Positions 4,244 through 63,445 of a stretch of 64,000 nt of DNA are shown here, one piece after another. The position numbers and the translations under genes are program-made. The notes below the pieces were generated by a model, which was given only the letters and a program-made list of their open reading frames with translations, was not told the origin of the DNA and did not search any database. The first letter of the stretch is position 1. Every line of letters starts with the position of its first letter. The DNA comes from Bolinopsis microptera (lineage: Eukaryota; Ctenophora; Tentaculata; Lobata; Bolinopsidae), in the NCBI RefSeq assembly GCF_026151205.1, contig NC_087072.1:25943799-26007798 (forward strand), written 5' to 3'.

Positions 4244-4365
4244 GGAGTTGGCAGGATTGAGAGATATCTTGTGTTCTTTACAGCCATCATAGAACCACTC
4301 CACGTTACATTTAGCTATCTGCATCACCTCTGACGTATTGTAGAACAGCACACATACTGTCAGAC
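4238..4365 (-). CDS. PWWP2-like gene, exon 5 (second half of PWWP domain)
   Basis: After the acceptor ATTCTCTAG it reads LTVCVLFYNTSEVMQIAK, then CNVEWFYDGCKEHKISLN, the expected second half of the PWWP barrel. The donor is GTACC|GTTAGT. The acceptor with the first 27 or so exon bases is repeated about 81 times upstream as the 64-bp array, and the donor is repeated eight times downstream as the 73-bp array, so the exon is bracketed by copies of its own edges. Confidence 0.65.
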
Positions 4366-16319: not shown

Positions 16320-19300
16320 GGAGCACTACCCGAAGGCATTACTCGGCACTAACGCCTTAAAATCTTTAATTACAATCAAATATAAATATATGCACACAAT
16401 GTATAAAGTATTAATAATGTATAAAATATGATTATGCTATTAGCAAATTTAAATAGTACTATTAAGAATTTTAAATAACTCTTATCTCTTGACATAAATT
16501 TAGAACAGCGACACAGGGTCTGAAGAATGCGCGGTGATATTTTTATCTTTTAAAAGTTGTAAATGACAGTGAAATTGCGCGGTGTCGATAGCATTGTAAA
16601 AAATGCTCGAAGATAGTCATATTTTGTTATGAGGTTAAAGTTTTGTTGCTCGTTATTATGATCAACGTATGTTGTACCAAATTATTTAAATTTCTAAAAG
16701 TACGAAATTTGAGTTGTCCCAGTCCTTGTCATCCGGTTTATGTGCTTGTGCAGTAAGCACATGCTTGTTGACTGTAGACTTGAATGAATTTAGGAATTTG
16801 TCTTGTAGGCAAGTGGTGACATATTTTATGTCCTTGTTAATAATGTTGACTGTTTGGTTATATAACTTAGGCCCAATGTAAGAAATGCTCTTGTCTGAAT
16901 TACATAAACGGTTAAATGGTACTGCAAAGAACTCAGGTTCTCTTCTAGGTGCGTTTAAGTTTGAAACAGTGAACATTCTTATAATATTTGGTGGTGCAGT
17001 GTTAGAATAAACTTTGTGCATTAAGCATAATATACATTTAGCTATCACGTTCGGTAAAGCTAATACTTCTAGTTTATTGAAAATTTCCTTTGTGTGTGAA
17101 GGTGTGCTATTCAGATCTTTGTCATAAAAATAGCGGTGGTATTGGTTATCTGCAGCGCGAATGCCCTTTTTCTGGGCCGAGAAGACTCTTTTAACGGAGT
17201 TTAGCGATCTTGTTCCCCAAACTGTGCAGCAGTAGTACAAGTGAGACTGAACAAAGCTGTTTTATATCAACTTGAGTGCTTTGTTAGGTACTGAGCCTTT
17301 GAGTTTGTAGAGAATACCCGCATTTCTAGATACTTTAGTGGCTAAATGTCTAATGTGGTGGGCCCAATTTAGCTTAGTATCAATGATCACGCCAAGAAAC
17401 TTTTCGTGATAACTTTGCTTTAGTCGCTCACCTCCCATGTAGATTTCTATATCCTTAGTTTTTTTATTTGTAAAGATCATATATTTAGTTTTGCTAGCAT
17501 ATAATTTAAGCCAGTTATTAGTAGCCCAATCAATTATCAAAGTCAGAATCTCATTCACCAATGCATTAAGTTGTTCAAATGTATCTGTACTTATTATTAG
17601 GTTTGCGTCGTCAGCGAAATAAATATGTTTAGCTAAATTACTAATCTGAGGAAGGTCGTTGATGTAGATTATGAACAGAATTGGTCCGAGAATGGAGCAC
17701 TGTGGTACTCCGTAGTTAAAGTTGAGGTGAGAGGACTTGCAGTTGTTGACGCTCACGTATTGCTCTCTATCGGTTAGATATGAGTGAAACCAAGATAAAG
17801 CCAACCCCCGAATTCCATAGTGCTCAAGTTTTCTCAGAAGAATACTGCTGTCAACCATGTCAAAGGCCTTGCTGTAGTCCAATAGAAGCAGTGCTGTGAC
17901 CTGCTTTTTTTTCTAGTGCCCTGTGAATATGGTTTTGGGCTTCTAGTAAAGCATGTTCGCAGCTGTGCCCAGCCCGAAATCCGTATTGAGAGTCAAATAG
18001 GATTTTCTCTGTCTTTAAGTGATCTAATAGTCGCGCTTGCATAATTTTTTCAAAGATTTTTGAGAAACATGAGAGTAGTGAGATAGGTCGATAGTTTGAA
18101 ACTTCAGCACGTGACCCACCTTTGTGAAGTGGAACTACTTTCGCGATTTTCAATTTATGCGGAAACTTCCCCTGATGTAGAGACGCAGAGACTAGGCAGC
18201 TAAGCACTGGTGCAAGTATATTGCTTACTTTTTTCAGGGGAAGTATACTCATATCAGAAGTCGACTTAATCTTCAAACCCTTAACTATTTCAATTATTTC
18301 TGATGCGGACGAATCTTCTAGATTCATGCTCCGCTGGCATTTGCTATCTTGAGTTTCTGTTACGATAGTCCTGCCCTCAGAGCATACGAGACCATTTTCT
18401 CTCTTAAGAGTCTCAGCTATATTGCAGAAATAGTCATTGAAGCTATTCGCAATTTGCTGAGAATCTGTTATCTCGCTCCCATTATAGTTAATTTTGTTTA
18501 TCTTAATTTTGCCTTTTTTCTTTCTGTTTAACAAGTTATTAACCATTTGCCATTGTTTTCTGCTGTCGCTAGAATATTTTGTAAAGTACGCGTTGTAATA
18601 TTTGTTTTTGGCCTTATCCACGTGTTTATTCACAAATTTCTTCATTTTCTTGTACCTAATATCATTTTCAGTGGTCGGGTTTGTGACAAAATCTTCATAA
18701 AATTTATTTTTGCGATCACATGCGCACCGTAACCATTCTTGGATCCACGGCTTTGTGTTTTTACGGCGGCCTGGTTTACTCTTTTTTGCCTTAATTGGGA
18801 AATTTCGGTCGTATAGTTCACTATATTTTTTATCGAAAGCCTCAAATTTTTCATCTACAGAATCATAGTTATTAACCAAGTTCCAGTCTACCGCAGAAAT
18901 GTCGTTCTCGAACTTTTGGATACTGTCATCGTTTATTACTCGAGAAGACATTTCTGTTGTATCTTCTTGAAGTTTACAACTGAGCCTATTCTGATCAACC
19001 ATGATTGTGACAAAAGTTGCCAAGTGGTCAGAGATTGACTCAGAAATTACTCCCGATTTTGTAACAGCGTGGCAATTATTGACGAAAATATGGTCAATGA
19101 TTGTCGCACTGTGATCTGTGACTCTAGTTGGTCTAGATATCACAGGAGCGAACCCATGCTCTGCTAGAGTGTCCACATACTTAGTGACAGAGTCTATTCT
19201 CCCGTAATCTAGTAGGTCTATGTTAGTATCACCGGCCAGTATGATATTTTTGTTTCGATGTCTTGCTAAGTTACGGAGGAAAATTTTTAATTGTTCAAGG

Positions 19301-20869
19301 AAACCATTCAAATCCCCACTTGGAGAGCGATATATATTACAGATTAACGCGTTTTTGTGCCCTTTCAAGGTAAGTTCTGCAACCAAGAATTCTCCTATCT
19401 TAGGATTATCGTGGCAACATAGAGCGCTCTTAACGTTTATGTCAGATAATTCACATAGTTTTTTGTTAACATATATAACTAATCCTCCACCACGATTTGA
19501 CGCTCTGGCGGGAGTCTGAACATACGGTGGATAGAAACCGTCTAGTTCGAGCTCCTCTCCCTGAAAAGGCAAACATTCCGTGTTACAATTTGTTTCATTG
19601 AAGCAGAGAACGTCGTATTTTGTGTATTGATCTATGTTCTCCCGAAATTCTTCAATGTTCCCATTAAGTGACCTAACGTTTAGCGAGAAAAGTTTTAATT
19701 CATACTCCTTCGTATTTTTTATTGCTTTCGCGGTATAGTATTTGCAGTTATTTAGAAGACTAGACGTTGTTTCCCATGGATTCAAATCAGCATCAGTATC
19801 ATCACGATCACCTATTTAATTTGATAGGTGGTCGCGATTAAAGGGGTTAAACCTAATAGTGTTACTGAGATTTATCATGTGAAGCTGTCTAATGGAGACA
19901 TCATATGCTGGGAAAATTTTTCTCAAGCATTCTTTGCAGCCTGTTGAGCCAGCAGAACATCTTGTGTGGGATAGGTTGTCACAGTAGCAACATTCGGTCA
20001 TTTGTCTTACATTCCCAATTTTTGTGCAAGTGTGACATTTTTCTCGTTTATTGGAGACTGGGATTTGTATAGGCCGTGATGGTAATAGAGGCATGACGGC
20101 GCCCACTGGAAGAATTTCTGAAATGCAGCTGTAGCAAGACCATTCTCCAGTAAGTTCAGTTATGTCGCTAGGTGTTAGGTGAGCACATTTTGGGTGATAT
20201 GTCATATAACAGATACTACAAGTGATACTTATCTTGTGTGAGACTAGGCGCTTTGTACAGGCCTTACAGCTATTTTTACTACTTCGGATAACTACCATTT
20301 TTTGGCTGTAACACTACAGTAACACTACAGTAACACTACAGTAACACTACAGTAACACTACAGTAACACTACAGTAACACTAGTACAGTAACACTACAGT
20401 AACACTACAGTAACACTACAGTAACACTACAGTAACACTACAGTAACACTACAGTAACACTACAGTAACACTACAGTAACACTACAGTAACACTACAGTA
20501 ACACTACAGTAACACTGCAGTAACACTACAGTAACACTACAGTAACACTACAGTAACACTACAGTAACACTACAGTAACACTACAGTAACACTACAGTAA
20601 CACTACAGTAACACTACAGTAACACTACAGTAACACTACAGTAACACTACAGTAACACTACAGTAACACTACACCCCACTATTTACCCCTCTCACCAGCG
20701 ACTCCTGAGCTCGCTTCAGCGCATCAGTGTAAACTATTTTAATCTTGCGAACATTTTCCTCCACCTCCACAAGTTCCGAGGAGAGGGCGGCGGTTTTATT
20801 GGTGGTCTTGTCCACTGTCTCTGTTACTTGCTGCTTTAACCTGTAGAAACCCTTTTGTAGGGCACTCAT
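13732..20869 (-). CDS. BAR-RhoGAP protein, ARHGAP17/ARHGAP44 (RICH/nadrin) family
   Basis: Three coding exons (20869-20696, 15959-15789, 15525-13732), all in phase 0, give 712 residues. An N-terminal BAR region (about 1-245, coiled-coil rich, starting MSALQKGFYRLKQQVTE) should bind curved membrane. A RhoGAP domain follows (about 265-460) with the arginine finger in GIFRLAGG and the motifs LKLYLRELPEPLL-like, KMGASNLGLVLGPN. This order and length match RICH1/2, which switch off Cdc42/Rac at cell junctions and endocytic sites. The tail is Pro-rich with SH3-type motifs and three NPF motifs (NPFGDSD twice, NPFNSP), predicted to bind EH-domain endocytic proteins. Intron 1 contains a minisatellite and a LINE. 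The family assignment is strong; the choice between ARHGAP17 and ARHGAP44 is not possible, as these are vertebrate paralogues. Confidence 0.88.
15789..15959 (-). CDS. ARHGAP17/44-like, exon 2 (BAR domain)
   Basis: The exon begins after CCCACCAG and ends at ACTTTG|GTAAGG. Its 57 codons (PSYQHFKNVAGAGNVDAEKR ... FDILKSCGDTL) match the second BAR helix of RICH proteins, including a CGD near the end. Confidence 0.8.
16171..16289. repeat. 11-bp minisatellite, left part
   Basis: Tandem ACTACAGTAAC units, with two longer variants containing TATCATT at the left end. It is the same array as 20308-20672, split by the LINE in between. It lies in intron 1 of the ARHGAP-like gene. Confidence 0.9.
16686..17240 (-). 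pseudogene. LINE ORF2, third part: RT thumb and C-terminus
   Basis: It is in the same frame as the RT core, downstream of the single premature TAA. The sequence includes YYCCTVWG, the thumb-region motif equivalent to Y-x3-VWG in related elements, and ends at a natural stop about 370 bases before the TCAA tail. Confidence 0.8.
17262..17882 (-). pseudogene. LINE ORF2, second part: RT catalytic core
   Basis: This continues the RT in the other frame: DYSKAFDMVD (first catalytic Asp), YGVPQCSILGPILF, and the YFADDAN active-site box, then FLGVIIDTKLNW. In YGVPQCSILG the usual PQGS glycine is Cys, and FADDTN is FADDAN; both are changes from the group consensus. The part ends at an in-frame TAA. Confidence 0.85.
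17860..19785 (-). pseudogene. LINE ORF2, first part: endonuclease and start of RT
   Basis: The apurinic-like endonuclease shows LKLFSLNVRSLNGNIEE, NETNCN, NIYRSPSGD, AGDTNIDLLDYG and SDHLATFV, the expected catalytic N, E, D and H blocks. The start of the reverse transcriptase follows (VVPLHKGGSRAEVSNYRPIS, then QYGFRAGHSCEHAL). The frame is lost at an A8 run at about 17905-17912, after which 12 out-of-frame codons lead to a stop. Confidence 0.85.
19816..20298 (-). CDS. LINE ORF1: PHD-finger protein
   Basis: 160 residues starting MVVIRSSKNSCKACTKRL. Spacing C-x2-C, C-x2-C, H-x2-C, then W-x-C-x2-C is a PHD finger (about residues 11-60). A second cysteine cluster (CHTCTKIGNVRQMTECCYC ... CKEC) follows at about 86-125. 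In CR1-type elements such ORF1 proteins are thought to act as nucleic-acid chaperones or targeting proteins. ORF2 begins 30 bases downstream of its stop. Confidence 0.75.
   Translation of the reverse strand: MVVIRSSKNSCKACTKRLVSHKISITCSICYMTYHPKCAHLTPSDITELTGEWSCYSCISEILPVGAVMPLLPSRPIQIPVSNKREKCHTCTKIGNVRQMTECCYCDNLSHTRCSAGSTGCKECLRKIFPAYDVSIRQLHMINLSNTIRFNPFNRDHLSN
20308..20672. repeat. 11-bp minisatellite, right part (~33 copies)
   Basis: Perfect ACTACAGTAAC units, with single variants such as ACTAGTACAGT near 20380 and ACTGCAGTAAC near 20515. The array continues from the left part across the LINE and ends about 24 bases from the exon 1 donor of the ARHGAP-like gene. Confidence 0.93.
20696..20869 (-). 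CDS. ARHGAP17/44-like, exon 1 (start codon, BAR domain)
   Basis: ATG at 20869 starts MSALQKGFYRLKQQVTETVD, equivalent to the amphipathic first helix of RICH1. Donor CTG|GTGAGA, phase 0, joins exon 2 well; an alternative GTAAAT lies 9 bases downstream. The 11-bp array begins about 24 bases into the intron. Upstream, at 20897-20910, CACGTCACGTGTC overlaps an E-box and a CRE-like site that may be promoter elements. Confidence 0.8.
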
Positions 20870-29793: not shown

Positions 29794-29833
29794 GGCTGCG
29801 GAGTGTTTAGTTTAGTATAGCCTCTAAAACAAC
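29794..29833. repeat. Isolated diverged copy of the SMARCD-intron 47-bp unit
   Basis: GGCTGCGGAGTGTTTAGTTT, AGTATAGCCTCTAAAACA matches the 47-bp unit of 31834-41283 with a few changes, yet lies 2 kb away, beyond the SMARCD 3' end. The rest of 29431-30726 shows no gene. Confidence 0.75.
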
Positions 29834-30726: not shown

Positions 30727-30906
30727 TCAGTTTGCAGTGGAAGTGCTAGTGCCGAGTTGGCGCACACCCAGGTCCCGCTCCAGCTCTGCGCGGCGCTGCT
30801 GTACTTTAGTGTAGAAGTAGCGACACACTCCCTCTTTTAACCAGTCCTTCTGATAGAACCCTGCTTTCCTTTCCTCCTCCGGGTCTCCATCTATATTCAG
30901 CATCAC
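30727..30906 (-). CDS. SMARCD: SMARCD exon 5 (C-terminus)
   Basis: Acceptor GTGTATCAG, then [20 protein letters not shown] and the conserved [19 protein letters not shown], ending at TGA. The last ten residues (GTSTSTAN tail) are lineage specific. Confidence 0.95.
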
Positions 30907-33900
30907 CTGATACACATTTAGTTATTATTAAACTACATAGTACGTACTGAGTAGTAGTAAGTTATTATTAAACTACATAGTACGTACTGAGTAGTAGTAA
31001 GTTATTATTAAACTACATAGTACGTACTGAGTAGTAGTAAGTTATTATTAAACTACATAGTACGTACTGAGTAGTAGTAAGTTATTATTAAACTACATAG
31101 TACGTACTGAGTAGTAGTAAGTTATTATTAAACTACATAGTACGTACTGAGTAGTAGTAAGTTATTATTAAACTACATAGTACGTACTGAGTAGTAGTAA
31201 GTTATTATTAAACTACATAGTACGTACTGAGTAGTAGTAAGTTATTATTAAACTACATAGTACGTACTGAGTAGTAGTAAGTTATTATTAAACTACATAG
31301 TACGTACTGAGTAGTAGTAAGTTATTATTAAACTACATAGTACGTACTGAGTAGTAGTAAGTTATTATTAAACTACATAGTACGTACGTTACTGAGTAGT
31401 AGTAAGTTATTATTAAACTACATAGTACGTACTGAGTAGTAGTAAGGAACAATCCGGTTATTATGGGCTCTTCCCCAGGTACTTTACTTATGAATAACTT
31501 AAATCTTGACGAACACATGGTTTCCGTCTAAATAATTAATTACTTATTCAATTGTAAATATAACTCTGTAACTATACCTATAACTCTGTAACTATGTTAT
31601 ATTATATAACTATAACTCTGTAACTTACCTTTAGGTCCCTACTCTGAGATATCAGCCACTTGTTGATAAAGCCATAAGGATCAGAAGCGAAGGACAGCAT
31701 GAACTCTCGTTTAGTTTTGAGCGCCTTTATACTGTCCACTGTCTCGTATATCTTCTGATCTAAACTCATAATCTCTTGTTGAGCTACTGTGGACACTAAG
31801 AAGTTGTTCATCTGCTGTTTGAGAGTGTCATCTACCTCCACACTGCGGAGTGTTTAGGTTAGTACAGCCTCTAAAACACTACCTCCACACTGCGGAGTGT
31901 TCAGGTTAGTACAGCCTCTAAAACACTACCTCCACACTGCGGAGTGTTTAGGTTAGTACAGCCTCTAAAACACTACCTCCACACTGCGGAGTGTTCAGGT
32001 TAGTACAGCCTCTAAAACACTACCTCCACACTGCGGAGTGTTCAGGTTAGTACAGCCTCTAAAACACTACCTCCACACTGCGGAGTGTTTAGGTTAGTAC
32101 AGCCTCTAAAACACTACCTCCACACTGCGGAGTGTTCAGGTTAGTACAGCCTCTAAAACACTACCTCCACACTGCGGAGTGTTTAGGTTAGTACAGCCTC
32201 TAAAACACTACCTCCACACTGCGGAGTGTTCAGGTTAGTACAGCCTCTAAAACACTACCTCCACACTGCGGAGTGTTCAGGTTAGTACAGCCTCTAAAAC
32301 ACTACCTCCACACTGCGGAGTGTTTAGGTTAGTACAGCCTCTAAAACACTACCTCCACACTGCGGAGTGTTCAAGTTAGTACAGCCTCTAAAACACTACC
32401 TCCACACTGCGGAGTGTTCAGGTTAGTACAGCCTCTAAAACACTACCTCCACACTGCGGAGTGTTCAGGTTAGTACAGCCTCTAAAACACTACCTCCACA
32501 CTGCGGAGTGTTCAGGTTAGTACAGCCTCTAAAACACTACCTCCACACTGCGGAGTGTTTAGGTTAGTACAGCCTCTAAAACACTACCTCCACACTGCGG
32601 AGTGTTTAGGTTAGTACAGCCTCTAAAACACTACCTCCACACTGCGGAGTGTTTAGGTTAGTACAGCCTCTAAAACACTACCTCCACACTGCGGAGTGTT
32701 TAGGTTAGTACAGCCTCTAAAACACTACCTCCACACTGCGGAGTGTTTAGGTTAGTACAGCCTCTAAAACACTACCTCCACACTGCGGAGTGTTTAGGTT
32801 AGTACAGCCTCTAAAACACTACCTCCACACTGCGGAGTGTTCAGGTTAGTACAGCCTCTAAAACACTACCTCCACACTGCGGAGTGTTCAGGTTAGTACA
32901 GCCTCTAAAACACTACCTCCACACTGCGGAGTGTTCAGGTTAGTACAGCCTCTAAAACACTACCTCCACACTGCGGAGTGTTTAGGTTAGTACAGCCTCT
33001 AAAACACTACCTCCACACTGCGGAGTGTTTAGGTTAGTACAGCCTCTAAAACACTACCTCCACACTGCGGAGTGTTTAGGTTAGTGCAGCCTCTAAAACA
33101 CTACCTCCACACTGCGGAGTGTTCAGGTTAGTACAGCCTCTAAAACACTACCTCCACACTGCGGAGTGTTTAGGTTAGTGCAGCCTCTAAAACACTACCT
33201 CCACACTGCGGAGTGTTCAGGTTAGTACAGCCTCTAAAACACTACCTCCACACTGCGGAGTGTTTAGGTTAGTACAGCCTCTAAAACACTACCTCCACAC
33301 TGCGGAGTGTTTAGGTTAGTACAGCCTCTAAAACACTACCTCCACACTGCGGAGTGTTCAGGTTAGTACAGCCTCTAAAACACTACCTCCACACTGCGGA
33401 GTGTTCAGGTTAGTACAGCCTCTAAAACACTACCTCCACACTGCGGAGTGTTCAGGTTAGTACAGCCTCTAAAACACTACCTCCACACTGCGGAGTGTTC
33501 AGGTTAGTACAGCCTCTAAAACACTACCTCCACACTGCGGAGTGTTCAGGTTAGTACAGCCTCTAAAACACTACCTCCACACTGCGGAGTGTTCAAGTTA
33601 GTACAGCCTCTAAAACACTACCTCCACACTGCGGAGTGTTCAGGTTAGTACAGCCTCTAAAACACTACCTCCACACTGCGGAGTGTTTAGGTTAGTACAG
33701 CCTCTAAAACACTACCTCCACACTGCGGAGTGTTCAGGTTAGTACAGCCTCTAAAACACTACCTCCACACTGCGGAGTGTTCAGGTTAGTACAGCCTCTA
33801 AAACACTACCTCCACACTGCGGAGTGTTCAGGTTAGTACAGCCTCTAAAACACTACCTCCACACTGCGGAGTGTTCAGGTTAGTACAGCCTCTAAAACAC

Positions 33901-36900
33901 TACCTCCACACTGCGGAGTGTTCAGGTTAGTACAGCCTCTAAAACACTACCTCCACACTGCGGAGTGTTCAGGTTAGTACAGCCTCTAAAACACTACCTC
34001 CACACTGCGGAGTGTTCAGGTTAGTACAGCCTCTAAAACACTACCTCCACACTGCGGAGTGTTCAGGTTAGTACAGCCTCTAAAACACTACCTCCACACT
34101 GCGGAGTGTTCAGGTTAGTACAGCCTCTAAAACACTACCTCCACACTGCGGAGTGTTCAGGTTAGTACAGCCTCTAAAACACTACCTCCACACTGCGGAG
34201 TGTTCAGGTTAGTACAGCCTCTAAAACACTACCTCCACACTGCGGAGTGTTCAGGTTAGTACAGCCTCTAAAACACTACCTCCACACTGCGGAGTGTTAG
34301 GTTAGTACAGCCTCTAAAACACTACCTCCACACTGCGGAGTGTTCAGGTTAGTACAGCCTCTAAAACACTACCTCCACACTGCGGAGTGTTCAGGTTAGT
34401 ACAGCCTCTAAAACACTACCTCCACACTGCGGAGTGTTCAGGTTAGTACAGCCTCTAAAACACTACCTCCACACTGCGGAGTGTTCAGGTTAGTACAGCC
34501 TCTAAAACACTACCTCCACACTGCGGAGTGTTCAGGTTAGTACAGCCTCTAAAACACTACCTCCACACTGCGGAGTGTTCAGGTTAGTACAGCCTCTAAA
34601 ACACTACCTCCACACTGCGGAGTGTTCAGGTTAGTACAGCCTCTAAAACACTACCTCCACACTGCGGAGTGTTCAGGTTAGTACAGCCTCTAAAACACTA
34701 CCTCCACACTGCGGAGTGTTCAGGTTAGTACAGCCTCTAAAACACTACCTCCACACTGCGGAGTGTTCAGGTTAGTACAGCCTCTAAAACACTACCTCCA
34801 CACTGCGGAGTGTTCAGGTTAGTACAGCCTCTAAAACACTACCTCCACACTGCGGAGTGTTCAGGTTAGTACAGCCTCTAAAACACTACCTCCACACTGC
34901 GGAGTGTTCAGGTTAGTACAGCCTCTAAAACACTACCTCCACACTGCGGAGTGTTTAGGTTAGTACAGCCTCTAAAACACTACCTCCACACTGCGGAGTG
35001 TTCAGGTTAGTACAGCCTCTAAAACACTACCTCCACACTGCGGAGTGTTTCAGGTTAGTACAGCCTCTAAAACACTACCTCCACACTGCGGAGTGTTCAG
35101 GTTAGTACAGCCTCTAAAACACTACCTCCACACTGCGGAGTGTTTAGGTTAGTACAGCCTCTAAAACACTACCTCCACACTGCGGAGTGTTTCAGGTTAG
35201 TACAGCCTCTAAAACACTACCTCCACACTGCGGAGTGTTCAGGTTAGTACAGCCTCTAAAACACTACCTCCACACTGCGGAGTGTTTCAGGTTAGTACAG
35301 CCTCTAAAACACTACCTCCACACTGCGGAGTGTTTAGGTTAGTACAGCCTCTAAAACACTACCTCCACACTGCGGAGTGTTCAGGTTAGTACAGCCTCTA
35401 AAACACTACCTCCACACTGCGGAGTGTTCAGGTTAGTACAGCCTCTAAAACACTACCTCCACACTGCGGAGTGTTCAGGTTAGTACAGCCTCTAAAACAC
35501 TACCTCCACACTGCGGAGTGTTTCAGGTTAGTACAGCCTCTAAAACACTACCTCCACACTGCGGAGTGTTCAGGTTAGTACAGCCTCTAAAACACTACCT
35601 CCACACTGCGGAGTGTTTCAGGTTAGTACAGCCTCTAAAACACTACCTCCACACTGCGGAGTGTTTCAGGTTAGTACAGCCTCTAAAACACTACCTCCAC
35701 ACTGCGGAGTGTTCAGGTTAGTACAGCCTCTAAAACACTACCTCCACACTGCGGAGTGTTCAGGTTAGTACAGCCTCTAAAACACTACCTCCACACTGCG
35801 GAGTGTTCAGGTTAGTACAGCCTCTAAAACACTACCTCCACACTGCGGAGTGTTCAGGTTAGTACAGCCTCTAAAACACTACCTCCACACTGCGGAGTGT
35901 TCAGGTTAGTACAGCCTCTAAAACACTACCTCCACACTGCGGAGTGTTCAGGTTAGTACAGCCTCTAAAACACTACCTCCACACTGCGGAGTGTTCAGGT
36001 TAGTACAGCCTCTAAAACACTACCTCCACACTGCGGAGTGTTTAGGTTAGTACAGCCTCTAAAACACTACCTCCACACTGCGGAGTGTTCAGGTTAGTAC
36101 AGCCTCTAAAACACTACCTCCACACTGCGGAGTGTTCAGGTTAGTACAGCCTCTAAAACACTACCTCCACACTGCGGAGTGTTCAGGTTAGTACAGCCTC
36201 TAAAACACTACCTCCACACTGCGGAGTGTTCAGGTTAGTACAGCCTCTAAAACACTACCTCCACACTGCGGAGTGTTCAGGTTAGTACAGCCTCTAAAAC
36301 ACTACCTCCACACTGCGGAGTGTTTAGGTTAGTACAGCCTCTAAAACACTACCTCCACACTGCGGAGTGTTTAGGTTAGTACAGCCTCTAAAACACTACC
36401 TCCACACTGCGGAGTGTTCAGGTTAGTACAGCCTCTAAAACACTACCTCCACACTGCGGAGTGTTCAGGTTAGTACAGCCTCTAAAACACTACCTCCACA
36501 CTGCGGAGTGTTCAGGTTAGTACAGCCTCTAAAACACTACCTCCACACTGCGGAGTGTTCAGGTTAGTACAGCCTCTAAAACACTACCTCCACACTGCGG
36601 AGTGTTCAGGTTAGTACAGCCTCTAAAACACTACCTCCACACTGCGGAGTGTTCAGGTTAGTACAGCCTCTAAAACACTACCTCCACACTGCGGAGTGTT
36701 CAGGTTAGTACAGCCTCTAAAACACTACCTCCACACTGCGGAGTGTTCAGGTTAGTACAGCCTCTAAAACACTACCTCCACACTGCGGAGTGTTCAGGTT
36801 AGTACAGCCTCTAAAACACTACCTCCACACTGCGGAGTGTTTAGGTTAGTACAGCCTCTAAAACACTACCTCCACACTGCGGAGTGTTCAGGTTAGTACA

Positions 36901-39900
36901 GCCTCTAAAACACTACCTCCACACTGCGGAGTGTTCAGGTTAGTACAGCCTCTAAAACACTACCTCCACACTGCGGAGTGTTTAGGTTAGTACAGCCTCT
37001 AAAACACTACCTCCACACTGCGGAGTGTTTAGGTTAGTACAGCCTCTAAAACACTACCTCCACACTGCGGAGTGTTTAGGTTAGTACAGCCTCTAAAACA
37101 CTACCTCCACACTGCGGAGTGTTTCAGGTTAGTACAGCCTCTAAAACACTACCTCCACACTGCGGAGTGTTTAGGTTAGTACAGCCTCTAAAACACTACC
37201 TCCACACTGCGGAGTGTTTAGGTTAGTACAGCCTCTAAAACACTACCTCCACACTGCGGAGTGTTCAGGTTAGTACAGCCTCTAAAACACTACCTCCACA
37301 CTGCGGAGTGTTCAGGTTAGTACAGCCTCTAAAACACTACCTCCACACTGCGGAGTGTTCAGGTTAGTACAGCCTCTAAAACACTACCTCCACACTGCGG
37401 AGTGTTCAGGTTAGTACAGCCTCTAAAACACTACCTCCACACTGCGGAGTGTTCAGGTTAGTACAGCCTCTAAAACACTACCTCCACACTGCGGAGTGTT
37501 TAGGTTAGTACAGCCTCTAAAACACTACCTCCACACTGCGGAGTGTTCAGGTTAGTACAGCCTCTAAAACACTACCTCCACACTGCGGAGTGTTTCAGGT
37601 TAGTACAGCCTCTAAAACACTACCTCCACACTGCGGAGTGTTCAGGTTAGTACAGCCTCTAAAACACTACCTCCACACTGCGGAGTGTTTAGGTTAGTAC
37701 AGCCTCTAAAACACTACCTCCACACTGCGGAGTGTTCAGGTTAGTACAGCCTCTAAAACACTACCTCCACACTGCGGAGTGTTTAGGTTAGTACAGCCTC
37801 TAAAACACTACCTCCACACTGCGGAGTGTTTAGGTTAGTACAGCCTCTAAAACACTACCTCCACACTGCGGAGTGTTTAGGTTAGTACAGCCTCTAAAAC
37901 ACTACCTCCACACTGCGGAGTGTTCAGGTTAGTACAGCCTCTAAAACACTACCTCCACACTGCGGAGTGTTTAGGTTAGTACAGCCTCTAAAACACTACC
38001 TCCACACTGCGGAGTGTTTAGGTTAGTACAGCCTCTAAAACACTACCTCCACACTGCGGAGTGTTTAGGTTAGTACAGCCTCTAAAACACTACCTCCACA
38101 CTGCGGAGTGTTTAGGTTAGTACAGCCTCTAAAACACTACCTCCACACTGCGGAGTGTTCAGGTTAGTACAGCCTCTAAAACACTACCTCCACACTGCGG
38201 AGTGTTCAGGTTAGTACAGCCTCTAAAGCACTACCTCCACACTGCGGAGTGTTCAGGTTAGTACAGCCTCTAAAGCACTACCTCCACACTGCGGAGTGTT
38301 CAGGTTAGTACAGCCTCTAAAGCACTACCTCCACACTGCGGAGTGTTCAGGTTAGTACAGCCTCTAAAACACTACCTCCACACTGCGGAGTGTTTAGGTT
38401 AGTACAGCCTCTAAAACACTACCTCCACACTGCGGAGTGTTTAGGTTAGTACAGCCTCTAAAACACTACCTCCACACTGCGGAGTGTTTAGGTTAGTACA
38501 GCCTCTAAAACACTACCTCCACACTGCGGAGTGTTTAGGTTAGTACAGCCTCTAAAACACTACCTCGACACTGCGGAGTGTTTAGGTTAGTACAGCCTCT
38601 AAAACACTACCTCCACACTGCGGAGTGTTTAGGTTAGTACAGCCTCTAAAACACTACCTCCACACTGCGGAGTGTTTAGGTTAGTACAGCCTCTAAAACG
38701 CTACCTCCACACTGCGGAGTGTTCAGGTTAGTACAGCCTCTAAAACGCTACCTCCACACTGCGGAGTGTTCAGGTTAGTACAGCCTCTAAAACACTACCT
38801 CGACACTGCGGAGTGTTCAGGTTAGTACAGCCTCTAAAACACTACCTCCACACTGCGGAGTGTTCAGGTTAGTACAGCCTCTAAAACACTACCTCCACAC
38901 TGCGGAGTGTTCAGGTTAGTACAGCCTCTAAAACACTACCTCCACACTGCGGAGTGTTCAGGTTAGTACAGCCTCTAAAACACTACCTCCACACTGCGGA
39001 GTGTTCAGGTTAGTACAGCCTCTAAAACACTACCTCCACACTGCGGAGTGTTCAGGTTAGTACAGCCTCTAAAACACTACCTCCACACTGCGGAGTGTTT
39101 AGGTTAGTACAGCCTCTAAAACACTACCTCCGCACTGCGGAGTGTTTAGGTTAGTACAGCCTCTAAAACACTACCTCCACACTGCGGAGTGTTCAGGTTA
39201 GTACAGCCTCTAAAACACTACCTCCACACTGCGGAGTGTTCAGGTTAGTACAGCCTCTTAAACACTACCTCCACACTGCGGAGTGTTCAGGTTAGTACAG
39301 CCTCTAAAACACTACCTCCACACTGCGGAGTGTTCAGGTTAGTACAGCCTCTAAAACACTACCTCCACACTGCGGAGTGTTCAGGTTAGTACAGCCTCTA
39401 AAACACTACCTCCACACTGCGGAGTGTTCAGGTTAGTACAGCCTCTAAAACACTACCTCCACACTGCGGAGTGTTTAGGTTAGTACAGCCTCTAAAACAC
39501 TACCTCCACACTGCGGAGTGTTTAGGTTAGTACAGCCTCTAAAACACTACCTCCACACTGCGGAGTGTTCAGGTTAGTACAGCCTCTAAAACACTACCTC
39601 CACACTGCGGAGTGTTCAGGTTAGTACAGCCTCTAAAACACTACCTCCACACTGCGGAGTGTTCAGGTTAGTACAGCCTCTAAAACACTACCACCACACT
39701 GCGGAGTGTTCAGGTTAGTACAGCCTCGAAAACACTACCTCCACACTGCGGAGTGTTTAGGTTAGTACAGCCTCTAAAACACTACCTCCACACTGCGGAG
39801 TGTTTAGGTTAGTACAGCCTCTAAAACACTACCTCCACACTGCGGAGTGTTCAGGTTAGTACAGCCTCTAAAACACTACCTCCGCACTGCGGAGTGTTCA

Positions 39901-42900
39901 GGTTAGTACAGCCTCTAAAACACTACCTCCGCACTGCGGAGTGTTCAGGTTAGTACAGCCTCTAAAACACTACCTCCACACTGCGGAGTGTTTAGGTTAG
40001 TACAGCCTCTAAAACACTACCTCCACACTGCGGAGTGTTCAGGTTAGTACAGCCTCTAAAACACTACCTCCACACTGCGGAGTGTTTAGGTTAGTACAGC
40101 CTCTAAAACACTACCTCCACACTGCGGAGTGTTTAGGTTAGTACAGCCTCTAAAACACTACCTCCACACTGCGGAGTGTTTAGGTTAGTACAGCCTCTAA
40201 AACACTACCTCCACACTGCGGAGTGTTTAGGTTAGTACAGCCTCTAAAACACTACCTCCACACTGCGGAGTGTTTAGGTTAGTACAGCCTCTAAAACACT
40301 ACCTCCACACTGCGGAGTGTTTAGGTTAGTACAGCCTCTAAAACACTACCTCCACACTGCGGAGTGTTTAGGTTAGTACAGCCTCTAAAACACTACCTCC
40401 ACACTGCGCAGTGTTTAGGTTAGTACAGCCTCTAAAACTCTACCTCCACACTGCGGAGTGTTTAGGTTAGTACAGCCTCTAAAACACTACCTCCACACTG
40501 CGGAGTGTTTAGGTTAGTACAGCCTCTAAAACACTACCTCCACACTGCGGAGTGTTTAGGTTAGTACAGCCTCTAAAACACTACCTCCACACTGCGGAGT
40601 GTTCAGGTTAGTACAGCCTCTAAAACACTACCTCCACACTGCGGAGTGTTCAGGTTAGTACAGCCTCTAAAACACTACCTCCACACTGCGGAGTGTTCAG
40701 GTTAGTACAGCCTCTAAAACACTACCTCCACACTGCGGAGTGTTCAGGTTAGTACAGCCTCTAAAACACTACCTCCACACTGCGGAGTGTTCAGGTTAGT
40801 ACAGCCTCTAAAACACTACCTCCACACTGCGGAGTGTTTAGGTTAGTACAGCCTCTAAAACACTACCTCCACACTGCGGAGTGTTTAGGTTAGTACAGCC
40901 TCTAAAACACTACCTCCACACTGCGGAGTGTTTAGGTTAGTACAGCCTCTAAAACACTACCTCCACACTGCGGAGTGTTTAGGTTAGTACAGCCTCTAAA
41001 ACACTACCTCCACACTGCGGAGTGTTTAGGTTAGTACAGCCTCTAAAACACTACCTCCACACTGCGGAGTGTTTAGGTTAGTTCAGCCTCTAAAACACTA
41101 CCTCCACACTGCGGAGTGTTTAGGTTAGTACAGCCTCTAAAACACTACCTCCACACTGCGGAGTGTTCAGGTTAGTACAGCCTCTAAAACACTACCTCCA
41201 CACTGCGGAGTGTTTAGGTTAGTACAGCCTCTAAAACACTACCTCTACACTGCGGAGTGTTTAGGTTAGTACAGCCTCTAAAATGCTGTACACAATCTTA
41301 AATAGTCCAAAAAGTATGAATTGAATTTTCATACATCTTGGAGACTAGAAACCCGCTGGTTGAAAACTTTGTTCGAAGAAATTTTAAAAATCTATTTAGT
41401 TTCAATTTCTCTTCGTCATCTAGCTCTGTACTGTAGAATGTTTTTATTTGACAACGTTATAAGTATTCGGGTTTTCTAAACGATACTTTTTACCGCATGA
41501 AAAAATATCAATCACAACCAAAGTTAGAAATAGTCATAGCTTGATCGTAAATATGAGCTAGTTAAGATGTATCATAGCGCGAAATCGCACGTTGTTAATC
41601 AGTGCCTGCTTGCGCACGTGCAATCTTTTGATGTTGCGCAACGGCGCAGTTAACCTTTGATGAAATTACGCCATTATTCTGTCGCTAATTGTTCCTCTCT
41701 TCAAAAGTTAATTATAAAAAATGTAAATCCTAGAAATCAAAATTCTAAGAATGCTGTCTCCTCTTCCTTTCCTTTTTCTACAACCCTGCTTAAAATCGCG
41801 AGGTTTCAACTCCATTTGCGAGCTGAAATTGGTCAGTTGAAGAAGGGTCGGTTTTTGGTCAATTTTCAGCGTTGCCGGGGAGATTTCGTCAAGTTTAAAA
41901 TATAATATAGATATGCTAAATGTTACAATTAGAAATAAATAATGACCTTATGTCCCAGTGGGTGACACTTTTTGTCTCCCCCGGATCCACTGCAACAATA
42001 TGCTCAATAACTATAGGGTCCGGAGGCTGCTGGAAAAGGGGGTTCAATTTGAAGGGAATGTCACTGAACTTCATGGTGGGACATTCGAATATACTCTGCA
42101 GATATTCGTCACACTTAATGGTGTCTCTGTGTATAGGGTCCTGTAGCTTGTTCGTCTGCAAAATAAAGGCGGTATCAAATATCTGGGATAAACTGCGATA
42201 ATCCCTCACTTTTATTGCAAGAACTATTATTAGTGTGTTACCACACTACCTCCACATTGCAAGAACTATTAAAATCAAATATCAAATATCGCAAATTTTG
42301 TGTTTTGTAAATCAATTAAAAATTTTCAGTAAGCTCCAATGTACAGATTATTACAGTTTAACACACTGTATTATAACGTTAAATGTGTATAGAGTCATAC
42401 TCTGTAGTCTGTACATCGTATAATGTACAGTAACCCCGATCGTTCAAGTTTCCCAAGTTTGTCAGCTTTATCGATAAATTGGGAAAGACTGATGACTGTG
42501 ATGAGCTACTATAAGGAAATATTCAGTAAATAGTATTTAAATAGTATTTAATACCTTGATATACTGCCAGAGAGCCGTCACAATAACAGGTCGCGTAGCC
42601 GTGTGGATACCCAACAATCTACCAAGTCTGGGATCTAGCTTGAAGTTCTGGGGCTGGTAGTCGAGCTGGAGGTTTATCGTGCATTTCACTGGCTTGTCCC
42701 CGGGACGCTTCACCTGAAAACCATCAGTTTCCTGTGTTTGTGGGTTCCTGTGCCACTCAACGAAGTTGCTATCGGGCCCGTACATCTCCTTATCTAGTTC
42801 AATGATAAGACTTTTGAAGAAACTACTGAATTTCTTCTTAGGAGCCCTAGGGTCAGATCTGACCTGCCCGTTCTCATCAAGAAGTCTCCCCTCTATTTTG

Positions 42901-43580
42901 AGCTCCCATGTAGTTTGGCACTCCTCTGAGTTAAGCTGATCTCCGGGGGATTTACTCTGGTTAGTGTAGCTAGTGTTTGTGATGAAGATACGCAGCTTCC
43001 TCTTCGTCTTCATTGGTTTCTTTAAAACCTCCTGTATGTCTAGACGCTTCCTCATAATGGTGGCATCTAGTTTCCGCTCGAATGATAACAGGTCCATGTA
43101 TGCTTGGGATTCAGGAACAAGCTCTCGTAACTGCTGGGATATTACCAGATCGGAGGCTTTCTTCTTCGGTTTTGGTTTGTGAGGAGGACGATGCACTGAA
43201 TGATGAGGCATAGGGCCCATTGAGGGGCCGGAGGGTTGGTTGGAGGGGCCGCTAGAACTCTTGACGTTGGGTCGGCGTCCAGGAGTTCTTCTAGACTGGT
43301 CCGAGTGGTAGGGACCTGGTCCACTCATTCTTTGTGGAGGAGTTCCAGGCTGAAACATTATGCTCGTCAAAATTAATTCAACTTTGGTTCTTAACACTAA
43401 AAGTGCTATATTTCGAGGCCATCTTAAGCTCTAATTATCCGTATCAACTTGAACACTCAGATTAATGAGCAATAGATAAAGCAGGTAAAGACTTACGGGC
43501 ATGCGTTGCGGAGATTGGTAGGCGGGGAATGGGTGGGCCATCTGGGGTGGCATTATATTGTTCGGCATAGGTACTGACAT
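30727..43580 (-). CDS. SMARCD: SMARCD (BAF60) subunit of SWI/SNF chromatin remodeller
   Basis: Five exons (43580-43497, 43349-42555, 42155-41947, 31845-31629, 30906-30727) give 494 residues; phases agree at each junction (0, 0, 2, 0). Length and order match vertebrate SMARCD1-3: a Pro/Gly/Met-rich start, a conserved middle ([18 protein letters not shown]), a SWIB/MDM2-like domain at about 270-345 ([34 protein letters not shown]), then the conserved helical end ([39 protein letters not shown]). BAF60 proteins link transcription factors to the nuclear SWI/SNF complex. There is one gene here, so no particular vertebrate paralogue is implied. Intron 3 is about 10.1 kb, of which about 9.4 kb is one minisatellite; intron 4 is mostly a 40-bp array. 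Confidence 0.95.
30921..31445. repeat. 40-bp minisatellite, ~13 copies, SMARCD intron 4
   Basis: Unit GTTATTATTAAACTACATAG plus TACGTACTGAGTAGTAGTAA. The copies are virtually identical except one 4-bp insertion (TACGTACGTTACTG) near 31388. It starts 15 bases from the exon 5 acceptor but does not include exon sequence. Confidence 0.96.
31629..31845 (-). CDS. SMARCD: SMARCD exon 4
   Basis: Acceptor CTCCGCAG, then [20 protein letters not shown] through SRDLK; donor AAAG|GTAAGT. The acceptor and first 11 exon bases are the repeated element of the upstream 47-bp array; only this most proximal copy continues into the exon. Confidence 0.93.
31834..41283. repeat. 47-bp minisatellite, ~200 copies, repeats the SMARCD exon 4 acceptor
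   Basis: Units recur every 47 bp; some are 48 bp with GTTTCAGG. On the minus strand each unit reads TACTAACCTGAACACTCC, GCAG, TGTGGAGGTAG, TGTTTTAGAGGCTG. That is a perfect TACTAAC branch-site consensus, an acceptor 15 bases on, and the first 11 bases of exon 4. The two main variants (TTCAGG and TTTAGG) are interspersed, and rare ones (GCACTACC at 38225-38330, CGCTACC near 38700-38750) cluster, which points to block duplication. The array makes up nearly all of intron 3. Confidence 0.98.
41284..41946. other. Unique part of SMARCD intron 3
   Basis: No coding sequence. It contains dispersed-repeat copy 2 at 41803-41914, partner of 1652-1781. Intron 2 (42156-42554) carries a short fragment at 42241-42260 (CACACTACCTCCACATTGC) resembling the 47-bp unit. 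Confidence 0.6.
41947..42155 (-). CDS. SMARCD: SMARCD exon 3 (end of SWIB)
   Basis: Acceptor TTATTTTGCAG, then [20 protein letters not shown], the SWIB second half. Donor ATAAG|GTCATT leaves phase 2, as needed by exon 4. A dispersed repeat (41803-41914) sits 33 bases into the following intron. Confidence 0.93.
42555..43349 (-). CDS. SMARCD: SMARCD exon 2 (core and start of SWIB)
   Basis: Acceptor ATGTTTCAG, donor ATCAAG|GTATTA; 265 codons. It contains the conserved block from [20 protein letters not shown] to the first half of SWIB ending ALWQYIK. Confidence 0.95.
43497..43580 (-). CDS. SMARCD: SMARCD exon 1
   Basis: ATG at 43580 begins [20 protein letters not shown]; donor CCC|GTAAGT. It joins exon 2 in phase 0 to continue the Pro/Gly/Met-rich N-terminus typical of the family. 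Confidence 0.85.
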
Positions 43581-52081: not shown

Positions 52082-55057
52082 AAATGGCATAAAGATTATT
52101 GAACAATGTCCAAAGAATAATGTCCACCTAATTGGCGATTTTAACATTGATTTACATGATGAAAACACCAAACTTGTCCAGGACTTCGAAAACTTGATAT
52201 TAGGCCTTGGTCTGTCACCTCTAATCTCCACCTACACGCACCACAAACCAGGATGTAAGCAATCATGCATTGATAACATACTCACTACCAACATAGAAAA
52301 TTCTGTTTACTCTGGATCAATAAGTACTTGCATCAGCCATCATCACGCTGTATTCCACATATTCAAATCACCCCTAGTCAGTAATGAGGCCCACGAGCAA
52401 AAGTACACCCAATACTACGATTATTGTGGAACTAATGTTGATCATTTTGTTAAAGCACTCGATAACGATTTGTTAAATATGCCACCAGAGAATTTCACCG
52501 ACTTTGTCTCAGTATTTAATCAACAACTAGACAACGCATGTAAACTAGAGCAACCTAAGTGTTCTAAACGAACCGCTAGGAATAATCCGTGGATTACGTC
52601 AGGCCTAATTAACTCTGTAAATAGAAAACATGAGCTTTATGAACTTAAGATAAAGGCAGGAAAAAAGGCATGTCTTAACACTTCAACACCCAACCAATCA
52701 GACTGTCTTTGTTATCACTGTACAAATAAAGTAATGCGTCATCAGGAATTTAAAGCACACCGGAAGTTATTAAACCACCTCATTAACAGTGGCGTAACGT
52801 TACTTTGTGCCGCCCCCCTGCTGATTGAAATTTGCCGCCCCTTTCCCGCCCCTAAAATTTTGTGTCCCTAAAAAAAAAAAAAAAAAGGTCGGGTACTTTT
52901 TTTGCCACCCCCTACACCTTTTTGCCGCCCCCTGAAGCAACAATGGTACCCCAAATATTTTTTTCACGTCGACCGAACGCTAAATTCGACAGGGTAGTAC
53001 ACCTATAAGGCGCTTTTTCCGTGAAATCAGACCTACAATCCAGGAAAATGCCGCCCCCCTAAGGTACCGCCCCCCTGCTAGCAGGGTTAGCAGGGGCAGT
53101 TGTTACGCCACTGCTCATTAATTGTGCAAAACATAAGTATCACGGGGGAAAGATTGCTGAATGTATTGGTGACAGCAAGAAAACTTGGCAGATAATTAAC
53201 GAATTACGTGGTAAGAAGAGACGTCAGACGAAACCTAACTTTATTATTGATAATGAGCGTGTAACCAATCGTCGTGTAATTGCAAATGAGTTCAACAAGT
53301 ACTTTGCTTCCATTGCATCTAATCTTAATGAAGTGTATTCTCATGACTATTTAAGAATAAATGATTTACCAACATTTACCGACTACCTCCCGAAATCCAT
53401 CACATCCAGTATTTATCTTAAAGACTGTGACAGTGCTGAAATGATAGAGACCATAAACGAATTAAAAAATGGTAAATCAAGCGACATACCTATTCATGTA
53501 ATTAAGAAGTCGTGTCAAGTAATTGCACCGTATTTAGTGAAGTATTTCAATAGATGCATGCAAGAAGGCCTATTTCCTGAAGAACTAAAGACAGGGAGAA
53601 TTAGTCCGATTTACAAAAAGGAAGATGAACAGCTTTTAGGAAATTATAGACCCGTATCGACACTACCTGTTTTTGGGAAAATACTAGAAAAACTGATATA
53701 TGCTAGGTTGTATAGTTTCTTAACCTCTAAGGGAATAATTCATGAAAACCAATTTGGTTTCAGAAAAGGGCATTCCACTAGTCATGCACTTAATTATTCT
53801 GTAGAACATATTGAATCGTTAACTAGCAAAAAGCAGCACGTACTAGGTGTCTTCGTAGATCTTTCTAAAGCCTTTGATACCCTAGACCACTCTAAGCTAA
53901 TAACAAAATTAAATAACTATGGTATCCGAGGAAATGCTCTAAATCTTATCTCTAGTTATTTATCTAATAGAAAACAATTTGTGGACGTTCTTGATGTAAA
54001 ATCTGATGAATTACCTGTAGAATTTGGAGTCCCCCAAGGGAGTGTGCTCGGACCTCTACTGTTCATACTGTACATAAATGATATTTGTAATATAACAAGT
54101 CTAGGTAAATTTGTTCTATTTGCTGACGACACTAATATATTTGTTGCAGCCGACTCAAAGGATAAGGTATATGACATGGCTAACAAAATACTGCAGGCTG
54201 TTAATAATTACATGATAGTAAACCTACTACAAATTAATGTAAAAAAGTGCTGTTACATGTACTTCTCTCCAAATAAACGTAACAATAATGAATTAGACGC
54301 CGATATAGATAGCTATTACCTATCCATGAATAACAAGGTAATCAAGCGTGTTAGTCAAACTAAATTCCTTGGAGTTATTATTGATGACAAATTAAGTTGG
54401 AAACCACACATACAATCTCTTAACAAAAAACTAAGCAGTGCTTGTGGACGTATCTACCGTATTAAGAAATGCTTACCAGAATCACTATATAAACAAATTT
54501 ACCATTCTCTCTTTGAATCACATCTCGGTTTTGCTATTTCTGTGTGGGGAGGTATTCCTAATATCCAGTTAAAACCACTATTTATTACTCAGAAGAAATG
54601 TATAAGAATTCTATTCAGAGACCATAAAAGGTATGTAGACAAATTCAAAACATGTGCTAGAGTTAGACCGTTCGGCTCCCAACGTTTGGGTTGCGATTTT
54701 TATGTTAAGGAGTCTACCAAACCTCTATTTGCAAAACATAAATTACTAGCTGTAGAGAACCTATATAGACTACGTTGCCTAATGGAATTTTTTAAGATAA
54801 TTAAGACAAGAGTACCAATTTCAATGTTCTCTTTGTTCACCATATCTCATAGGAAAGACAATATGTTAATCACACCTTCTCCAACTAAACAATTCATCTA
54901 TAAATCAGCGTGGCTGTGGAATGAGTTTTGTAAAATTGGCTCATTTAATTTTAATTCCTCTTGTTCTTCTGTTAAGAATAAATTACAAAAGTCATTGATG
55001 AATGCCCAAAACAGGTATGGTGCTGAATGGAATGACAAAAATTTCACTGAATTCTAA
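52082..55057 (+). mobile_element. CR1/L2-like LINE, 5'-truncated, carrying a MITE
   Basis: The copy starts within the endonuclease (NVHLIGDFNIDLHDENTK, then STYTHHKPGCKQSCIDNI) and runs to the natural end of ORF2 at 55057. RT motifs are clear: GNYRPVSTLPVFGKILEK, NQFGFRKGHSTSHAL, DLSKAFDTLDHSKL, FGVPQGSVLGPLLF, FADDTNIF and FLGVIIDDKLSW. The only break in the frame is a 327-bp inverted-repeat element at 52787-53113; removing it and one target copy restores the frame exactly. The LINE was therefore intact over this part when the MITE landed, and it is young. Confidence 0.9.
52787..53113. mobile_element. MITE, TIR CAGTGGCGTAAC, 8-bp target duplication
   Basis: Ends CAGTGGCGTAAC and GTTACGCCACTG are inverted copies. 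It is flanked by perfect 8-bp direct repeats CTCATTAA (52779-52786 and 53114-53121). The interior is rich in GCCGCCCC-type tracts and has no transposase. An 8-bp duplication suggests hAT, P or Merlin type mobilisation. It interrupts LINE ORF2. Confidence 0.92.
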
Positions 55058-62077: not shown

Positions 62078-63440
62078 TTACTGCAATTTAAAATTGTTTG
62101 GAGTCCAAGTATCTTTTAAGTCAGCTGCCTGTGCTTGTATTAATAGTGCTTTGGTTCTCAGTTTTATCAAGCTAATGGACGTTTCTAAGCAATTGCTTGA
62201 AGTTAAAATTTTTTTATGAACAGCGTTCCAAAGCTTGGCTGCATTAAACAAAAAGGTATTTGATTTATTTAGGAGAATAACCATTAGACTCGTTGCACGG
62301 TTTGAAATGTTGATAGCCTCATAAAGGGAGTATGGGCAGTGGTACTTGATAATCTTAGAGAATTCTAAAATACAGTGATATTTGTACAAGTTTTGAGCTG
62401 TAAGAATTTTTAATCTATTAAAAATGGGTTTTGTATGCTCCTTTTCAAAGTGTTTATGGTCTAGTTTTTGCATACCGTATGGTCTAGTACGTGCACATGT
62501 TGATTGTTTATCTAAATATGAGTCAAGGTCGCCAAAAAGGATCCTTATACAGTGCTTCTGTGTGATGAAAAGACTATCATTGGACCGTTCTTTGAGGACA
62601 ACACCCCAAACACTTATACCATAACTGAGATGTGATTCAAAAAGAGCATTATATATTTTCAAATATAGTTCAGAAGGTATCGAGTGCCGAATTCTGCAGA
62701 TTGCACCAGTCATAGATCGCAGTTTTTTACGGATGTAGTGCATGTGGGCAATCCAGTTTAGCTTACTATCTATAACAACACCTAAGAATTTGGTATCCTT
62801 GACTTTAGTAATAACCTTACCATTGATGAATATTGATCTAGATTCATCTAGCAGGATAGCAAATGGTCTGGTCCGTGCACAGGTGTCATCATATTCAGAG
62901 GCAGGTTTAAAATGTATGTAGCAGCATTTGGACATGTTGATATGAAGTAGATTACATTTCATGTAAATCGAGACATGTTTAAGTACTAAGTTGGCTTTTT
63001 TGTATGTTGCTTCTCTAGATGGTCCTGATATGAAGATATTAGTGTCATCAGCATAAAGTACAAATTTCACCTCACTGTCTGAAAAGCAGTTAACTATATC
63101 GTTCATATACAATAGGAAGAGTAACGGCCCCAGAATTGACCCTTGTGGTACTCCAAATTTCACGTCCATTGTTTCTGATGGTACATCGTTATACATAACA
63201 TACTGCTTTCTGTTAGTCAAATAGCTTTTTAGTAAGGTAAGTGCTGTGCCCCTAATACCGTAGGAATTTAATTTGCATAAAAGAATATCGTGATCAAGGG
63301 TGTCGAAGGCTTTGCTCAAGTCAATGAATATCCCTAGGACATGTTTATTGCTTGCCAGAGACTTAGTAACGGAGTCTACAGATTTGTGTAGAGCATGGGT
63401 GGTAGAATGGCCTTTTCTAAATCCAAACTGTGAGTCTGTT
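62078..63440 (-). mobile_element. CR1/L2-like LINE, 5'-truncated, open RT
   Basis: The copy starts within the RT (LTDSQFGFRKGHSTTHALHK) at about 63440 and stays open to the ORF2 stop at 62078. Motifs: DLSKAFDTLDHDILL, FGVPQGSILGPLLF, YADDTNIF, FLGVVIDSKLNW, YGISVWG, CIRILFGDLDSYLDK. It is related to but distinct from the copy at 52082-55057, with an insert of about 15 residues (TCARTRPFAILL) after the YADD region. No lesion is seen in the RT part, so the copy is young. Confidence 0.9.
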
Positions 63441-63445
63441 AGTAC

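Follow-up and report, generated by a model that had tools for sequence, protein, structure and literature searches.

Mirages are minisatellite-like tandem duplications of exon-intron boundaries, described in amphioxus in the globin genes BflGb6 and BflGb9 and in Adh3, TnC and PGBD5; as the cited passages present them, they lie at 5' or 3' boundaries, carry splice signals in many of their units and are spliced normally (PMC3087553, PMC3902484). Here we describe a comparable array in the ctenophore Bolinopsis microptera. In a stretch of 64,000 nt (GCF_026151205.1, NC_087072.1:25,943,799-26,007,798, forward strand; hereafter the window), intron 3 of the SMARCD/BAP60 gene holds 201 tandem units of 47 bp that span its boundary with exon 4. 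Judged from its structural features, the array is a mirage, a kind of element already described in amphioxus: the unit spans an exon-intron boundary, and both 5' and 3' boundaries are affected in this genome. We think it probable that this splice-junction minisatellite grew by a duplication across the junction together with slippage, and that its last acceptor is chosen through exon definition.

In amphioxus, the two BflGb6 haplotypes have 3 and 6 units, each of 150-160 bp, against 201 units of 47 bp (~98% identity) here, whilst the units of the Adh3 mirage are given as 10-72 bp. From the amphioxus mirages, as far as those passages describe them, the SMARCD array also differs in the phylum, in having TACTAAC in nearly every unit and in being accompanied by several further cases in one genome. 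The human ABCA7 intron-18 variable number tandem repeat (VNTR) is likewise an intronic array, there of up to ~10 kb; in the part of the source cited, its 25-bp unit holds a splice-donor dinucleotide, and inclusion of one unit leads to a frameshift (PMC5954066). The ABCA7 array lies on the donor side and the SMARCD array on the acceptor side. Longer ABCA7 arrays have been shown to raise exon 19 skipping (PMC5954066), whereas the SMARCD array is known from sequence alone. Tandem duplication has further been described as a route of intron gain, in which the duplication makes new splice-site pairs (PMC3443670), and as the source of such pairs at the dual-specific sites in UBC (PMC10809524). Compared with what these passages describe, SMARCD is the case of an existing intron growing, with no new intron or variable exon number seen. 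The minisatellite of IFI6 (6-16) reportedly supplies multiple splice donor sites that are used in the transcript (Turri, in 1995, is said to have found this); there, too, many splice sites would come from a minisatellite, but on the donor side.

The SMARCD array and its unit

The gene lies on the minus strand of the window, where five predicted exons give a 493-amino-acid open frame with a SWIB domain; the best PDB match of the predicted protein is the SMARCD-family chain 7vdv_Y (E 2.3e-169). A database protein, P0002 (367 amino acids, encoded by a 2,022-bp contig), is 100% identical to the prediction from residue 127 to the end, across the exon 2-3, 3-4 and 4-5 joins. Intron 3 is 10,104 bp long, and the array, detected with Tandem Repeats Finder (TRF), fills 9.45 kb of it. 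In window coordinates, the features are as follows.

43497..43580, minus strand: exon 1, coding part (predicted; outside P0002 coverage)
42555..43349, minus strand: exon 2 (exon prediction)
41947..42155, minus strand: exon 3 (exon prediction and P0002 match)
41284..41946, minus strand: single-copy 5' portion of intron 3 (663 nt), opening with donor GTCATT (exon prediction)
31832..41283, minus strand: tandem array of 47 bp x 201 in intron 3 (TRF and unit parsing)
31858..31864, minus strand: branch-site-like TACTAAC in the exon-proximal copy; it begins 22 nt ahead of exon 4 (putative branch site, by its motif)
31843..31845, minus strand: CAG acceptor of the exon-proximal copy (in-frame exon join; P0002 identical across the join)
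31629..31842, minus strand: exon 4, 214 nt, then donor GTAAGT (exon prediction and P0002 match)
30727..30906, minus strand: exon 5, coding part (exon prediction and P0002 match)

TRF reported a period of 47, 201.0 copies and 98% matches, and parsing of the coding strand gave 201 units, eight of them of 48 bp and one of 46 bp. The unit reads TTTTAGAGGCTG-TACTAAC-CTRAACACTCCGCAG/TGTGGAGGTAG-TG, where the slash marks the boundary between intron 3 and exon 4; that is, it consists of the end of the intron (TACTAAC ... CAG), the 11 nt with which exon 4 begins (TGTGGAGGTAG) and TG. The match to exon 4 stops at 11 nt, the next base being A in the exon and T in the unit. Chance is excluded, because an array of 201 copies ends exactly at the boundary of a coding exon.

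These results confirm the array that an initial annotation of the same DNA had reported. Its naming of the gene as SMARCD, with the array in intron 3, was borne out by the exon prediction, the SWIB domain and the 7vdv_Y match, and its count of about 200 tandem junction copies agrees with TRF. The comparison of unit and exon 4 likewise upheld the reading that the intron-exon junction itself had been amplified, together with exactly 11 bases of exon 4. Three details need correction. Of the limits it gave, 31834-41283, the end stood whilst the start moves to 31832; exon 4 begins at 31842, so that the acceptor coordinate of 31846 was off by 4 bp; and TACTAAC, said to be perfect in each unit, is exact in 198 of 201 units, the other three differing at the first base.

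CAG is intact in every one of the 201 units. CTGCGCAG replaces CTCCGCAG in one unit, and a common G/A variant is clustered along the array, with 71% of adjacent unit pairs alike, a value reached in 0 of 2,000 permutations. Besides this site, the units of exactly 47 bp hold only 21 substitutions, three of them in TACTAAC and none in CAG.

Acceptor choice and alternative readings

In the predicted transcripts, each of the 200 upstream acceptors, when joined to exon 3, leads to a stop, after six codons for 198 copies and after 10 codons for two. The initial annotation had anticipated both about 200 acceptor-like copies ahead of the real one, as counted here, and a stop six codons in, which is right for all but those two. 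Such early stops, and the intact acceptor signals of nearly all copies, would suit a regulated poison-acceptor array in which the upstream acceptors divert transcripts to decay and so tune SMARCD output; the length of the human ABCA7 VNTR can, according to the passages cited, shift splicing (PMC5954066). We consider this reading quite unlikely. Use of the upstream copies has no support from RNA reads, and the intact signals are no sign of selection: the three substitutions in TACTAAC and none in CAG compare with a random expectation of 3.2 and 1.4 (worked out by hand), and 21 substitutions are too few for a test of selection on the unit copies. Action of the upstream copies as decoys, or a regulated choice among acceptors, are thus named here as candidate roles only.

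P0002 bears on the choice itself. A 2-kb contig is too short for a 10-kb intron, and its source is therefore most simply a spliced transcript; read in this way, it shows the exon-proximal acceptor in use in at least one mRNA. P0002 agrees with the regular splicing of mirages, as a single contig that does not give the array state of its own genome.

The same join bears on stepwise or nested splicing, in which every unit would serve as a candidate 40-nt intron (GTAGTG ... CAG) with a 7-nt exon, and removal of the array would proceed in steps. The unit can be read in that way, and GAGGTAGTG is present in 196 of 201 units. We nevertheless hold the reading to be highly improbable: the P0002 join has no TGTGGAG insert, and GTAGTG fits the donor consensus poorly. 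Published mirages, in the sections cited, splice normally (PMC3087553, PMC3902484).

RNA folding was compared with shuffled controls, which bear on the possibility that the upstream copies are concealed by RNA structure, with the real acceptor alone left open. The units are able to pair with one another, and against plain shuffles the z-scores ranged from -1.2 to -5.9 overall (-3.1 for three units, -5.9 for ten). Arrays built of shuffled units fold equally well, with 39-52 of 150 reaching the observed energy; repetition thus accounts for the z-scores. In accessibility, the real CAG does not exceed those of the copies. On the shuffled-unit control and the equal CAG accessibility, we rejected sequestration of the upstream copies, a reading that we rate as scarcely credible.

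Could the copy number be an artefact of assembly? Tandem arrays assemble badly, and in one draft a lancelet mirage had been assembled wrongly, according to the passage cited (PMC3087553). Here, however, the copies bear variants that are structured along the array, other exons carry similar arrays, and contig C1 spans 26.2 Mb, which suggests long reads. An artefact is, on this evidence, very unlikely.

The remaining alternative is a mobile element or introner whose unit brought the acceptor along. We searched the 264.65-Mb genome with the unit (match counts are lower bounds) and found at least one further partial copy, which lies 3' of SMARCD; a second SMARCD array lies in intron 4.

29796..29831, minus strand: partial unit copy of 36 bp, located 3' of SMARCD and ending exactly at CAG (94% identity over 36 bp)
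30920..31446, minus strand: second SMARCD array (intron 4), 13 copies of a 40-bp unit that contains TAATAAC and ...CTACTCAG (TRF and unit reading)

The partial copy, with its exact end at CAG, would speak for such an origin. The genome search turned up no dispersed family, and what the unit takes from the exon is coding sequence of SMARCD. We rejected a mobile origin, the least probable of all these readings, on the finding of one partial copy 2 kb away and no dispersed related copies.

A further piece of the unit lies in intron 2 (window 42243-42256, minus strand), a 14-nt match that includes the unit's own GTAG-TG join and adjoins a 15-bp direct repeat whose two copies bound the stretch (42256-42270 and 42214-42228); a search with the intron 2 stretch matched itself alone. 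To judge from their sequence, the 36-bp and 14-nt pieces may be repair-templated copies. The intron 4 array, whose unit contains an acceptor-like stretch, ends 13 bp short of exon 5.

Junction arrays at other genes

Minisatellites occupy 8.0% of the bases in 20 evenly spaced 10-kb stretches of contig C1 and 35% of the window; in the ctenophore Hormiphora, the passage cited gives 13% of the genome by the same program (PMC8527503). We searched for arrays as three closely spaced copies of a motif, a procedure that catches only some splice sites and one period range. The places found are not equivalent to arrays, large arrays dominate them, and our conclusions come from the inspected arrays among the first places listed. 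TACTAAC gave 5,798 places against 630 for the reversed control; those listed were mostly a few repeat families, and no conclusion is drawn. AGGTAAGT gave 1,258 places against 11 for its reversed control (single 8-mers, 9 and 7 clusters in 272 kb), and TTTCAGGT gave 257 against 22 (single 8-mers, 22 and 4 clusters). Six of the seven arrays in the AGGTAAGT donor list were inspected: two exit an exon, two are one repeated element and two are without an exon. From the TTTCAGGT acceptor list of 18 arrays, 15 were inspected, of which six open into an exon, eight are without one and one (L059) is ambiguous. With a TGF-beta receptor I-like gene from one of the 20 stretches, the further cases in this genome comprise donor-junction arrays at three exons, acceptor-junction arrays at six and one two-copy acceptor duplication.

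L032:7903-9141 and L040:2623-2739 (C1 ~13.01 Mb): TGF-beta receptor I-like gene, donor array and acceptor duplication
C1:14124772-14125043, minus strand: ADAM-type gene, donor array of eight copies including the real one (AGGTAAGT search)
C1 ~4181600-4183450, minus strand: donor array behind an exon without family match (AGGTAAGT search)
L051: acceptor array, ubiquitin-conjugating enzyme exon (Pfam, E 1.3e-14)
L053: acceptor array, open frame without family match
L054: acceptor array, GMP synthase exon (E 5e-4, weak)
L057: acceptor array, phospholipid-translocating ATPase exon (E 1.8e-11)
L062: acceptor array, second unnamed open frame
L063: acceptor array, glutathione-disulfide reductase exon (E 1e-16)

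In the TGF-beta receptor I-like gene, found in one of the 20 samples (L032), the exon ends in GAACCACCTG/GTAAGT and is followed by 29 intronic copies of the junction, 25 of which hold ACCTGGTAAGT exactly. The acceptor-junction duplication of the same gene has two copies of 45 nt at a spacing of 72 bp, 96% identical. The protein of this gene matches P0121 at 99%, Mnemiopsis leidyi at 87% and, among the matches listed, named animals outside the ctenophores at 35-47%, which places the genome among the ctenophores; COX1 gave no match in the assembly. In the ADAM-type gene, the disintegrin domain is continuous across the exon join at the donor array. Unit and exon share their first 13-26 nt in five of the six acceptor arrays (the five compared), against 11 nt in SMARCD.

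Several side observations follow. In the TGF-beta receptor I-like gene, P0121 and the genome differ at two residues immediately ahead of the end of the array exon, and at these the genomic sequence matches the array unit; to go by the sequences, it is possible that the array homogenised the exon end, or that P0121 comes from another species. At L040:281-1154, an array runs up to an acceptor of the same gene, with units that read CTCACAA or CCCACAA where the real site reads CTCACAG; its copies are therefore without AG. Two arrays of one unit lie ~6.5 kb apart at C5:22867053-22867515 and 22874032-22875254 (minus strand), and the first alone adjoins the phospholipid-ATPase exon. A 32-bp unit bearing AGGTAAGT occurs at C1:36576-37703 and 761375-762150 (minus strand), with similar flanks and no convincing exon, and is probably a dispersed repeated element. 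Within the window itself, positions 4338-9524 hold another array of great length, with 81 copies of 64 bp (98% matches), and long open frames lie at 17265-19815 (minus), 53063-55054 (plus) and 62081-63445 (minus), which we take to resemble parts of retroelements of the long interspersed nuclear element (LINE) type.

Growth of the array and its significance

Growth as a junction minisatellite would start from one tandem duplication across the junction, which would leave one junction on the exon body and place the other inside the intron. The extra intronic copy would be nearly harmless, or neutral, while the copy attached to the exon remained the one chosen, and slippage or unequal exchange could then enlarge the array; the clustering of the G/A variant between neighbours (71%) fits local slippage or unequal exchange. 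The last acceptor would be picked by exon definition because only that copy abuts a real exon with a donor, here the 214-nt coding exon followed by the good donor GTAAGT. Splicing to earlier copies would lead to a stop and presumably to decay. Other genes of this ctenophore genome may have undergone the same process at their donors and acceptors.

Several points weigh against this account. The first copy is the one that proximity to the exon 3 donor would favour, and exon definition would therefore have to outweigh this proximity. The evidence on splice choice is one transcript contig, silent on the rates at which copies are used and on the presence of the array in its animal. Of 37 arrays of at least 100 bp in the samples and the window, two are known as junction arrays, the rest not having been checked singly. 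Finally, no exon was found at eight of the 15 inspected TTTCAGGT arrays or at four of the six inspected AGGTAAGT arrays.

A more speculative, and in our view unlikely, extension starts from the weak cis donor ahead of the 201-fold acceptor array: depending on its length, the array could serve as a sink or an entry point for trans-splicing or for splicing coupled to decay, so that its length would set how much of a BAF-complex subunit is made, or in which form. The extension also holds that intron growth in the phylum may draw on mirages as a standing source across the genome. Ctenophores use spliced-leader trans-splicing, as stated in the passage cited (PMC8527503).

We found no report of junction arrays in ctenophores in the open-licence literature searched, a scope that makes the absence weak. 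What is new here is the scale of the array, the presence of TACTAAC in almost all units and the setting, a ctenophore genome that holds further cases. The SMARCD array is a natural experiment on acceptor choice, with 201 near-identical cassettes of branch site and acceptor that differ mainly in the real exon behind them, and junction counts along it would reveal how far exon context beats nearness to the donor. The arrays at unrelated exons extend mirages from lancelets to ctenophores, and suggest that in repeat-rich genomes introns grow recurrently by junction duplication.

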